Assembly (NCBI RefSeq): GCF_018613235.1
Contig: NZ_JAGGQP010000006.1
Coordinates: 1-64,000 of the forward strand
Length of the DNA: 64,000 bases
Origin: Bacillus sp. ISL-41
GTDB lineage: Bacteria > Bacillota > Bacilli > Bacillales > Cytobacillaceae
Direction of reading: 5' to 3'
The first letter of the stretch is position 1. The number at the start of each line of letters is the position of its first letter. Position numbers and translations under genes: made by a program. Shown here in pieces: positions 7,931 through 37,805 of the stretch. The notes under the pieces are model-generated. The model saw only the letters and a list, made by a program, of their open reading frames with translations. It did no database searches and was not told where the DNA came from.

Positions 7931-8176
7931 GATGGATTTTCGCTCCAGGCACTTCGCTTTCCGCGGGAAGAATATGAAAAAGACCACTTGCCGTCTTTTT
8001 CATAAGCAATTCTTCCTTGGGGCTGGCGGTGAGCCTCCTCGGAGCAAGCCCCTGTGGGGTCTCACCTGTCCAGCTGATCCCGCAGGACATTGAATTACTT
8101 CCTCGAGTCTGCCCACGCACGATGGAAATGCGTTAGCATTTTCGAGGAGTCTTCGTGCCTCCCGCTACAATCCAAT
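7931..8176 (-). repeat. Interspersed repeat family 1, copy 1
   Basis: Fills the yaaA-dnaN gap. Read on the minus strand it matches the copies at 11571 and 45471: the start GAAGACTCCTCGAAAATGC, GCATTTCC, CGTGCGTGGGC, then GCGGGATCAGC, GTGAGACCCC, GCCGAGGAGGCTC, the AAGGAAGAATT core and the end CCGCGGAAAGCGAAGTGCCTGGA. It breaks the normal compact dnaN-yaaA spacing. A spurious reading frame (7893-8120) runs through it. No transposase or clear terminal inverted repeat is seen. The match is by eye. Confidence 0.85.
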
Positions 8177-20189: not shown

Positions 20190-20381
20190 GTTAAATAACT
20201 TTTCATATTACCGCATTATTACTTTGGCATAAAAATTCTATCAACTATCTTGATTCATGATAAAATAGAATACATGATTGCTTTTTTTAAGATTTGTTTC
20301 CCTTGATTCAGTGAGGATTCATAATCTCCTTTTATAATTTATGTTTCTACTTCGATGAGTGTCTAGCTCCAGCGCCTAGCC

Positions 20382-20440
20382 AGTTTTCTTCCCTGCTAGT
20401 GCTTCCTCGAGTATCTTGCGAGAAGCGTTAGCTTTGAGCA
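20382..20440 (+). repeat. Structured insert, divergent copy inside repeat family 2
   Basis: A 59 bp block that starts AGTT, contains CTTGCGAGAAG and ends TTTGAGCA, as do the three 66-67 bp inserts in the tRNA cluster (37047, 37181, 37579). The intact family 2 copy lacks it, which shows it to be an insertion. As in the tRNA cases, GCTC upstream and GAGC at its end could pair. Confidence 0.55.
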
Positions 20441-20468
20441 GCTCGAGTCGCTTGTCTAGTGTCGCCTC

Positions 20469-20549
20469 CTAGAAACTCCGAAACTTCAACTCCGCCGGCA
20501 GAAGCAAAAAGCGCTTCTTTGTCGGAGTCTCCAGTTTCTGCGTTTCTGG
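20469..20549 (+). repeat. Long imperfect hairpin inserted in repeat family 2
   Basis: Arms of about 26 bases (20469-20494 and 20523-20549) are roughly three-quarters complementary, with AGAAGC / GCTTCT forming an inner stem. The block is missing from the intact copy near 62500. It could be a miniature insertion element; no gene is present. Confidence 0.65.
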
Positions 20550-20692
20550 GCAGTCGGCTATACATTTCGATTTCAGTCCTGCCAATGAAGTCAAAGAGCG
20601 ACTTCACTGTCAGGCCCTCCAGCGCTTGTCGGGGCTGACCAAGGCCCTTGCGCTTTTCTAATTATTTTACGGGTTTGAAAGAAGGTGACAAT

Positions 20693-36802: not shown

Positions 36803-37029
36803 TTTGTAAAACAAACCAACTGTTTTCCAGTTCGCGGAATTAAACAATTTTTATAGAGTCCAGCTAGATAAACAGCATTAAATGTAAACAATAAGAGTAC
36901 GGTATACGCAGGAAAATTACATTTTTAAAGAAAAAAGCAAAAAAAAATTAAAAAAATATATACAAACAATAAAATGCTATGGTAATATAAACAACGTTGT
37001 CACTAATTCGACAAAAAATGATAAGATAC

Positions 37030-37112
37030 GAGCCATTAGCTCAGTCAGTTGCTAACATCTTTGAACTCACTTCAGCGGCAACTTGCGAGAAAGGCCTAAG
37101 GTCTTTTGAGCA
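37030..37112 (+). pseudogene. tRNA-Lys 5' fragment with structured insert (copy A)
   Basis: GAGCCATTAGCTCAGTC (37030-37046) equals the first 17 bases of the intact tRNA-Lys at 37310. The D loop is then replaced by a 66 base block (37047-37112) starting AGTTGCT, containing GCGGCAACTTGCGAGAA and ending TTTTGAGCA. No anticodon arm or 3' half follows. The upstream sequence TTGTCA (about 36993) to GATAAG could be a promoter. Confidence 0.75.
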
Positions 37113-37154
37113 CTGTATCAAGCTAATAATCATTTAGGGTTAAAGTTTTAATAC

Positions 37155-37246
37155 GAGCCATTAGCTCAGTCGGTAGAGCAAGTTGCTCACTTCCTTGAAA
37201 AACTTCTGCGGCAACTTGCGAGAAGGACCGTAAGGTCGTTCGAGCA
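37155..37246 (+). pseudogene. tRNA-Lys 5' fragment with structured insert (copy B)
   Basis: The first 26 bases of tRNA-Lys (37155-37180, through GGTAGAGCA) are followed by a 66 base block (37181-37246). It has AGTTGC pairing with GCAACT, then TTGCGAGAA, the hairpin GACC-GTAA-GGTC with a GNRA-type tetraloop and the end TTCGAGCA. GAGCA is thus present at both edges. The following TCGCAGATGCG no longer matches a tRNA. Confidence 0.75.
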
Positions 37247-37309
37247 TCGCAGATGCGAAAAACAAAACTAACTAGGGTTCACAAAACTAGGTGTTACTTC
37301 TTTTCATAC

Positions 37310-37385
37310 GAGCCATTAGCTCAGTCGGTAGAGCATCTGACTTTTAATCAGAGGGTCGAAGGTTCGAGTCCTTCATGGCTCACCA
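37310..37385 (+). tRNA. tRNA-Lys (anticodon TTT)
   Basis: 76 bases including encoded CCA. The acceptor stem GAGCCAT / ATGGCTC pairs fully, the D arm is AGCTCAGTCGGTAGAGC, the anticodon loop CTTTTAA reads TTT, and the T arm holds GGTTCGAGTCC. Two broken copies of its 5' end lie upstream. Confidence 0.96.
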
Positions 37386-37455
37386 AGATTTTTTTGCGCA
37401 AGCAAAAATAATCTTCCTTAGATTCGCGACAGCGAAAAAGATCAACTTTATATCT

Positions 37456-37530
37456 GGCCCCTTGGTCAAGCGGTTAAGACACCGCCCTTTCACGGCGGTA
37501 ACACGGGTTCGAATCCCGTAGGGGTCACCA
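37456..37530 (+). tRNA. tRNA-Glu (anticodon TTC)
   Basis: 75 bases with CCA. Acceptor stem GGCCCCT / AGGGGTC with one G-T pair, anticodon loop CTTTCAC reading TTC, T arm CGGGTTCGAATCCCG. It lies between the Lys and Phe genes and has no broken copy. Confidence 0.95.
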
Positions 37531-37561
37531 TAATACATATATAATTGAGTAGTTTTATCGT

Positions 37562-37645
37562 GGCTCAGTAGCTCAGTCAGTTGCTTGCTTCTCCGAATAA
37601 GCATCTGCGGCAACTTGCGAGAAAAACCGCAAGGTCATTCGAGCA
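37562..37645 (+). pseudogene. tRNA-Phe 5' fragment with structured insert (copy C)
   Basis: GGCTCAGTAGCTCAGTC (37562-37578) equals the start of tRNA-Phe at 37690. A 67 base insert (37579-37645) starts AGTTGCT, has TGCTT / AAGCA as an inner stem, GCGGCAACTTGCGAGAA, then ACC-GCAA-GGT, and ends TTCGAGCA. After it the sequence runs on as GAGCAAAGGACT, as in tRNA-Phe, before decaying. So the insert sits exactly in the D loop. Confidence 0.78.
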
Positions 37646-37689
37646 AAGGACTTAAACCAGTCAAATTTTAGGAAATAACTTATTATCTT

Positions 37690-37762
37690 GGCTCAGTAGC
37701 TCAGTCGGTAGAGCAAAGGACTGAAAATCCTTGTGTCGGCGGTTCGATTCCGTCCTGAGCCA
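37690..37762 (+). tRNA. tRNA-Phe (anticodon GAA)
   Basis: 73 bases; GGCTCAG / CTGAGCC acceptor stem, anticodon loop CTGAAAA reading GAA, T arm GCGGTTCGATTCCGT. The CCA end is not encoded (ATT follows), so it must be added by nucleotidyltransferase. Confidence 0.95.
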
Positions 37763-37764
37763 TT

Positions 37765-37805
37765 AAAAAAGGGAGCGTGTCATATGACATGCTCTCTTTT
37801 TTTTT
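37765..37805 (+). terminator. Terminator of the tRNA cluster
   Basis: GGGAGCGTGTCAT / ATGACATGCTCTC with a palindromic centre and a run of at least nine T. Confidence 0.93.

Follow-up and report, generated by a model that had tools for sequence, protein, structure and literature searches.

In the 64,000-nucleotide stretch of Bacillus sp. ISL-41 DNA analysed here (the window), three inserts in a tRNA gene cluster are copies of a conserved structured RNA of two hairpins. Each insert is the body of a unit that opens with a 5' tRNA fragment and closes with a tail. Such units recur in related bacteria on the strand of the tRNA genes that they accompany, carry one of two related classes of body whose folds show covariation, are better conserved than the spacer before them and are inherited slot by slot. 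The suggestion of an earlier sequence-only reading that the inserts could be a functional tRNA-derived RNA of conserved structure is thus upheld by their presence in many genomes and independent assemblies, by covarying pairs and by conservation above that of the neighbouring spacer.

The window units and the fold of the body

A small tRNA cluster, Lys-Glu-Phe, lies in the window 3' of a gene which we take to be purA, and its three intact tRNAs were called by ARAGORN. Two units precede tRNA-Lys and one precedes tRNA-Phe. All three read in the same order, with a 5' tRNA fragment from nucleotide 1, an insert of 66–67 nt and a tail, and are followed by an intact tRNA of the same kind, directly or behind a second unit (Table 1). 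The inserts, here called A, B and C, were found where the sequence-only reading had placed them, and the fragments before them proved to be exact 5' parts of the downstream tRNAs. That reading also held that the GCTC and GAGC strands of the D stem flank every insert, which is the case for A and C; insert B comes only after the complete D arm, and GAGCA recurs at its end. B and C (77–78% identical, E 2.0e-13 and 1.9e-10) were retrieved by a search with copy A and its flank, which also brought up a fourth copy, likewise linked to a tRNA, in another part of the genome (E 1.0e-10). The tRNA-Phe of the window (37760–37770) is without an encoded CCA, and the tRNA-Lys and tRNA-Glu of the cluster encode one.

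Table 1. Positions of the units, their cognate tRNAs and the repeat-borne body relative in the window
Feature	Position	Strand	Evidence
Unit 1, 5' fragment of tRNA-Lys, nt 1–17	37030..37046	+	identical to nt 1–17 of intact tRNA-Lys at 37310
Unit 1, class-1 body A	37047..37112	+	P1 37047–37052 with 37078–37083; P2 37084–37112; 78.7 bits
Unit 1, tail, 42 nt	37113..37154	+	sequence
Unit 2, 5' fragment of tRNA-Lys, nt 1–26, whole D arm	37155..37180	+	sequence
Unit 2, class-1 body B	37181..37246	+	P1 37181–37186 with 37211–37216; P2 37217–37246; 86.2 bits
Unit 2, tail, 63 nt, long Lys-type with TCGCAGATGCGA hairpin	37247..37309	+	sequence
Intact tRNA-Lys(TTT), cognate of units 1 and 2	37310..37385	+	ARAGORN, Rfam scan
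Unit 3, 5' fragment of tRNA-Phe, nt 1–17	37562..37578	+	sequence
Unit 3, class-1 body C	37579..37645	+	P1 37579–37584 with 37610–37615; P2 37616–37645; 84.8 bits
Unit 3, tail	37646..37689	+	sequence
Intact tRNA-Phe(GAA), cognate of unit 3	37690..37762	+	ARAGORN, Rfam scan
Diverged body relative inside dispersed palindromic repeat	20382..20440	+	25.6 bits, model from tRNA-type copies only

The fold of this body, termed class 1, was derived with RNAalifold from 26 tRNA-type copies of the own genome and its relatives (alignment A3). It has two hairpins, P1 (RRTTGC/GCAAYY), which encloses a large loop, and P2, the stem of which (UGC-GA-GAA ... UUY-GA-GCA) holds tandem G·A and has a GNRA-like end. 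In A3, 98.6% of cells were paired and 24 cells had changed on both sides, a number reached in none of 500 shuffles. A larger set of 72 distinct rows, taken from 60 further loci, gave 98.3% pairing in 1126 cells and 129 compensatory cells over 12 of the 16 pairs, again matched by 0 of 500 shuffles; when the pairing partners were shifted by 1 to 3 columns, 2 to 25 such cells remained in place of 129. Alignments A4 (75 matches, six of them weak at E 1.1e-6 to 0.023) and A6 were fitted to models and are biased towards the structure. The GA positions were near-invariant (68–71 of 72 rows), and the hand-drawn structure was concordant with RNAalifold for both classes. G-U cells outnumbered A-C cells 58 to 4, an excess that points to an RNA of the tRNA strand.

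Folded one at a time, the window copies proved only modestly stable (z -0.9 to -2.5), and P1 was absent from the lowest-energy folds of B and C, so the case is carried by comparison. The pairing of AGTTGC with GCAACT and the short hairpin, both surmised from the window copies, are accordingly backed by covariation despite the missing stem in the most stable single folds of B and C. In both classes compensatory changes exceeded those of the shuffles, as is characteristic of a conserved structured RNA.

Distribution, body classes and tRNA context

Covariance model searches of related genomes, which the sequence-only reading had put forward as a check, recovered further copies in many other genomes, with covarying pairs. 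At E <= 0.01 class 1 matched 94 of the 193 genomes of the family, in 15 of 25 genera, and the best match reached E <= 1e-6 in 73 of the 94, a split that matters because weak matches can be a palindromic repeat. Across the order 22 of 397 genomes matched, and one genome of the own genus (G012) was without a class-1 match. The own genome has five tRNA-type copies among 12 matches at E <= 1, the 7 weakest being copies of the palindromic repeat. In genome G128, 7 of 25 matches at E <= 0.01 fell in tRNA operons and 18 in the repeat; no repeat copy of either genome matched class 1 better than 1.5e-4. A high copy number, which 20 class-1 matches of G128 in the family search had suggested, was dismissed on this account, as the matches of G128 are mostly repeat and matches per genome are not units per genome. 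Fourteen other genomes held 58 mostly weak class-1 matches, and all 30 loci fetched from them contain tRNA genes. Among the matches listed for these genomes a divergent P1 (GATTTTAAAAG with CTTTTAAAATC, or GATTGC with GCAATC) still pairs, and the pair beside the tandem G·A is C-G instead of G-C.

A class-1 pattern scan of the genome collection returned 118 stretches. The 80 loci that were read yielded 85 matches, 45 of them near a tRNA and 40 without one that look like chance, as does one of the 45, in a Gastranaerophilales bin (L201); the remaining 38 stretches entered pooled counts only. Assembly error was rejected as an origin of the units, since the same units recur in many independent genomes, including one-contig assemblies. 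A weak class-1 match (13.7 bits, E 0.21) at 8089–8145 of the window, where the sequence is again GC-rich and hairpin-like, is probably chance or a distant relative.

A body-blind search for repeated tRNA starts, in which cognateness is built in as units are found via their cognate start, returned 235 units. By pattern 185 of these were class 1 and 40 class 2, the second body, which emerged from this search; of the 10 left over, about half were class-2-like and three class-1-like. The class-1 units preceded Phe (109), Lys (63), Asn (5), Thr (3) and Gly (2) genes and apparently one each of Met, Ser and Arg, numbers that say nothing on frequency because the loci were mostly fetched for class-1 matches. 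P1 of class 2 reads AAC-GA-GC/GC-GA-GTT, and its P2 has seven pairs, six with compensatory changes. Out of 24 class-2 sequences that passed the pattern 20 are in alignment A5; the four outside it comprise one that the pattern itself had truncated and three that were intact (L290, Asn; L125 and L134, Asp). Pairing extended to 97.7% of 788 cells, with 77 double-change cells over 6 of 12 pairs; the count of G-U to A-C (8 to 6) is silent on the strand.

The tRNA after class 2 is most often fMet, and Met, Asn, Gly, Asp, Thr and Phe also occur. Across the order class-2 model R2 matched 184 of 397 genomes in 79 of 135 genera, the other 213 genomes being without a match. The best-scoring 30 loci were all in tRNA operons. 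ARAGORN found tRNA genes in 25 of 26 weaker loci from a class-level search, the 26th (L406) showing the fMet design beside a masked stretch. A class-level draw of 398 genomes gave 15 with matches, all in the own order, a draw that does not establish absence elsewhere. Further body variants were seen before Thr, Lys, Phe, Gly, Arg and Met. One variant, GACGCATC..GAGGAAGAG, stands before Thr, Lys, Gly, Asn and Asp genes (L404, L414, L416, L398, L125, L134), and another, starting CGAYCGAA or similar, before Phe, Thr and Lys (L087, L294, L396, L410, L347). The Phe unit at L087 combines a CGAYCGAA-type body with a tail like that of the class-1 Phe units of the same genome (L098, L117) and looks as if bodies were swapped.

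Strong copies whose flanks were read lie within tRNA operons and are oriented as the tRNA. Of the bodies picked by pattern, 300 have a tRNA no more than 200 nt away, which in 297 lies solely on the strand of the body and in 3 on the other strand; 27 further bodies have no tRNA within that distance. A cognate half matching the downstream intact tRNA was present in 222 of 258 body-anchored units, a count that accepts a half on nt 8–15, with 194 of the 222 also exact at nt 1–7. Per position of nt 1–7, mismatches to the downstream tRNA numbered 5 to 17 in 163 class-1 units and 0 to 4 in 59 class-2 units. No recognisable half was seen in the other 36 units. Directly 3' of a tRNA-Thr or tRNA-Gln gene lie 21 of these, and in the cases read the body starts immediately after the CCA of the complete tRNA and the next tRNA is a different one (Tyr, Lys, Cys, Gly). 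Some others sit at contig edges. Among the class-2 loci, L417 has its body behind a tRNA-Arg, and no tRNA was found downstream of it.

The points of insertion thus range over the D loop, the end of the D stem, the hinge to the anticodon stem, the anticodon loop (Gly) and the position after CCA (Thr, Gln). The statement that the insert always sits at the D arm does not extend beyond the window copies, given points as far apart as the D loop and the end of a complete tRNA, and a D-arm-specific insert is ruled out by this variety. The bodies also occur before Asn, Gly, Thr, Met, Asp and Arg genes, in line with the argument that an insert common to Lys and Phe speaks against simple tandem duplication.

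Two genomes were surveyed across the tRNA regions listed for them, G016 (one contig, at least 83 tRNA matches) and G128 (two contigs, at least 95). A unit occupied 17 of their 20 inter-tRNA gaps longer than 75 nt, palindromic repeats being present in two of the other three, and the units numbered 10 in G016 and at least 11 in G128. One unit of G128 stands at a single tRNA-Arg gene (L359), which shows that a long operon is not needed. Tails were 42–47 nt long in 48 of 63 units of the own genus. A universal third hairpin in the tail was discarded, such a hairpin being frequent in Phe and fMet tails and absent in others. At the purA locus of G016 (L340) the tRNA after the Phe unit is tRNA-Ser(TGA) by ARAGORN, yet its 5' half is that of tRNA-Phe, reflecting an altered gene or a sequence error. 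Around 1973–2119 of locus L006 one P1 start is followed by two P2 hairpins, which looks like two units fused by deletion.

Inheritance, turnover and the body relative in a dispersed repeat

Sites with and without the insert, as the sequence-only reading had suggested comparing, were found at the purA locus, where units have been gained and lost. Across 31 genomes Lys carries 0 to 3 units and Phe 0 to 4, with four of the 31 loci showing no intact tRNA within the stretch fetched. Body identities were compared within the own genus, using locus–genome links assigned by hand and pattern-picked units, so that diverged bodies are missed. Class-1 bodies of the same slot in different genomes were 0.873 identical (257 pairs), those of different slots in one genome 0.791 (75 pairs) and all others 0.796 (1376 pairs); for class 2 the values were 0.951 (21 pairs), 0.833 (only 2 pairs) and 0.81 (55 pairs). 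In the own genus, therefore, sharing a genome did not make bodies more similar than sharing a slot, as it would for a mobile element, class 2 contributing 2 within-genome pairs. Likeness by slot indicates inheritance in place with local gain and loss, not spread within genomes, and direct repeats of 17–26 bp would allow such local changes.

Same-slot conservation, likewise assessed in the own genus and between different species, was 0.94 for class 1 and 0.99 for class 2 in the first 15 nt of the fragment. It amounted to 0.88 and 0.95 in the body, 0.78 and 0.86 in the tail and 0.59 and 0.69 in the 15 nt before the unit, shuffled tails giving 0.49. Nucleotides 1–7 of the fragment scored 0.99 in class 2; in class 1 they did not exceed the body, with 0.883. 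This gradient, from fragment and body through the tail to the preceding spacer, is not expected of neutral remains, and so we regard the unit as a selected structured RNA of tRNA operons. Gene conversion from the adjacent intact tRNA could maintain the half without selection.

A fourth copy had been suspected at 20382–20440 of the window. It is a real relative of the body (Table 1) that lies, however, in a dispersed palindromic repeat. A search with it touched 32 places in the own genome, 18 of them over most of the query. The repeat is a GC-rich palindrome in which the body relative stands between CCTAGCC and CTCGAG, and empty copies read CCTAGCC-CCTCGAG. Among 27 own-genome loci read, 12 were filled, 8 empty and 7 not classed; in G128, which belongs to a different genus, the body relative fills this site in 18 copies. 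With a class-1 model containing no repeat copies, the repeat supplied the only other own-genome hits at E <= 1 (1.9e-4 to 0.28). We take the body-like sequence of the repeat as homologous to the class-1 body on this similarity; several P1 pairs are lost in the repeat copies when aligned to the model. A past insertion of the body is likely, considering that its relative occupies one repeat site that also exists empty, and the repeat offers the strongest hint of past movement of the body. The repeat itself is abundant, GC-rich and common to two genera (window 20350–20660, L035–L062, L426–L443).

Possible roles of the unit and comparison with known systems

We think it rather probable that the unit is a structured cassette that belongs regularly, by vertical inheritance, to the tRNA operons of this order of Bacilli and acts in cis on the downstream tRNA. 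A two-hairpin body would once have been inserted into a truncated 5' tRNA copy starting at nucleotide 1, the 3' part of which would have been replaced by the tail, leaving an intact tRNA, usually of the same kind, at a similar distance. Transcribed together with the operon, the unit would serve as a folded leader or spacer in the maturation or expression of the next tRNA. Action in cis on the tRNA just downstream, and a shared transcript, are suggested by a tRNA start before the body, the common strand and the similar distance to the next nucleotide 1, features of nearly all units. The cognate half would be the scar of the entry of the cassette into a duplicated tRNA copy, kept since the whole unit is useful. 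Against this reading stand the gain and loss of units, the genome G012 without class 1, the 213 genomes of the order without class 2, the near-balanced G-U and A-C counts of class 2, the first 7 nt of the class-1 fragment, which are conserved no better than the body, the possible upkeep of the half by gene conversion, a tail without a universal fold, the 36 body-anchored units without a recognisable half, and locus L417. More tentatively, and with appreciable doubt on our part, the cognate half may be an identity module coupled to a swappable effector body, placed at a set distance before the tRNA that it governs, in use throughout the order and seeded by an ancient insertion.

Filled and empty sites, as expected of a mobile element, were found, and an alternative, which we judge fairly unlikely, is a small element with tRNA genes as its target, whose insertion copies the 5' part of the target gene and thereby leaves an intact tRNA in place. 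Its DNA might be primed from tRNA fragments or it might be moved by an unlinked enzyme, with the hairpins as recognition ends. Such an element would be in keeping with cognate duplication for many different tRNAs, with insert points at the D loop, hinge, anticodon loop and CCA end, with presence and absence at orthologous sites, and with a body relative in a dispersed repeat that has empty copies in the own genome and 18 filled ones in G128. However, the bodies follow the slot and not the genome, matches in the own genome (E <= 1) and G128 (E <= 0.01) are confined to tRNA operons and one repeat, and the repeat-borne copies stand at one site and have probably spread along with the repeat. With blastn, plasmids contained no copy of the class-1 window unit or the class-2 unit and phage records no copy of the class-2 unit, while 4 pattern matches in IMG/VR were without a tRNA and due to chance; phage or plasmid cargo was rejected on these grounds. 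At about 110–160 nt the unit also has little room for a gene. The tiny mobile or retro-type element with D-arm specificity that the sequence-only reading had entertained thus finds no backing in bodies that track their slot, in plasmid and phage searches without a copy or in varied insert points, and a currently mobile element is not supported at present.

The presence of some ten or more units per genome in G016 and G128, the tRNA processing sites flanking the body and the class-1 G-U excess would also suit a small RNA acting in trans after excision by tRNA-processing enzymes, for instance as a multi-copy decoy or sponge. We regard this as unlikely, as it leaves the match between the half and the next tRNA and the similar distance unexplained. 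Were the half instead to rival the genuine 5' strand in pairing with the 3' acceptor strand, the unit could be a fold switch controlling tRNA folding. Nearest-neighbour energies, calculated for 120 of 163 qualifying units, favoured pairing of the half in 109 of the 120, and 6 fMet units favoured it more than their shuffled spacers (-8.07 vs -6.28 kcal/mol). Shuffled spacers, however, favoured the half in 120 of 120, and the real sequence exceeded the control only in 17 of 101 class-1 and 8 of 19 class-2 units. The class-1 body in fact weakens the competition and class 2 is about even, and the scheme is inapplicable where a body follows a complete, different tRNA. A switch by acceptor competition is accordingly unsupported against shuffled controls; as these favour the half even more in class 1 and about evenly in class 2, we do not propose it and consider it very unlikely. 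Least credible to us is a by-product, in which tandem tRNA duplication leaves decaying 5' copies with the hairpins as neutral passengers. Direct repeats favour gain and loss and tandem arrays of units exist, but the unit is better conserved than the preceding spacer and covaries strongly across the order, by which this explanation is already disfavoured.

Operons of tRNA genes are usually read as tRNA genes and inert spacers. In many genera of one order, they contain conserved, covarying RNA cassettes seated in cognate half-tRNA copies. If the units act on their neighbours, bacteria would tune single tRNAs within operons by leader RNAs, and if the half is an identity module this would amount to a new layer of control over tRNA supply. 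If the bodies once moved, tRNA genes have hosted a gene-sparing kind of insertion.

At gathering scores Rfam placed no family over the units of the window. Scans of window positions 37000–37700 at E <= 10, of 8 loci at E <= 1 and of 4 loci at E <= 0.5 gave only isolated sub-threshold matches, including JPX_1 (E 0.92) and GlsR5 (E 1.6) on the minus strand over body C, which we take as chance. A literature search found no description of cassettes in half-tRNA copies. The rtT RNA of the E. coli tyrT operon is a tRNA-operon spacer RNA of repeats containing a piece of a tRNA gene, and the units resemble it in this respect. However, rtT RNA carries a 3' tRNA piece and belongs to one operon, whereas the fragments of the units begin at nucleotide 1 rather than comprising the 3' tRNA end, derive from many tRNAs, are cognate to the next gene and are joined to two covarying body classes in many genera. 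T-box leader RNAs are structured RNAs that relate to a particular tRNA, as the units do, and stand before protein genes; the units precede tRNA genes instead, and no T-box match appeared in the Rfam scans of the window, of its positions 37000–37700 or of the 8 and 4 loci. Nor do the units resemble tRNA introns between two complete exons, as tRNA sequence resumes for at most a few nucleotides after the body in the units read.

Half-tRNA genes with a structured extension, such as the units possess, have been described among the split tRNA genes of archaea (PMC4390854). In contrast to these, as far as the cited account goes, an intact gene follows the unit, so that no separate 3' half is needed, and the matching intact tRNA is present in 222 of the 258 body-anchored units. 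Comparative genomics has produced candidate motifs that are likewise conserved, covarying bacterial RNAs without a known function (PMC2864571, PMC8632094); unlike the motifs as presented there, the units sit in tRNA operons and are joined to tRNA fragments. We rate their architecture as new; as conserved structured RNA they have precedents.
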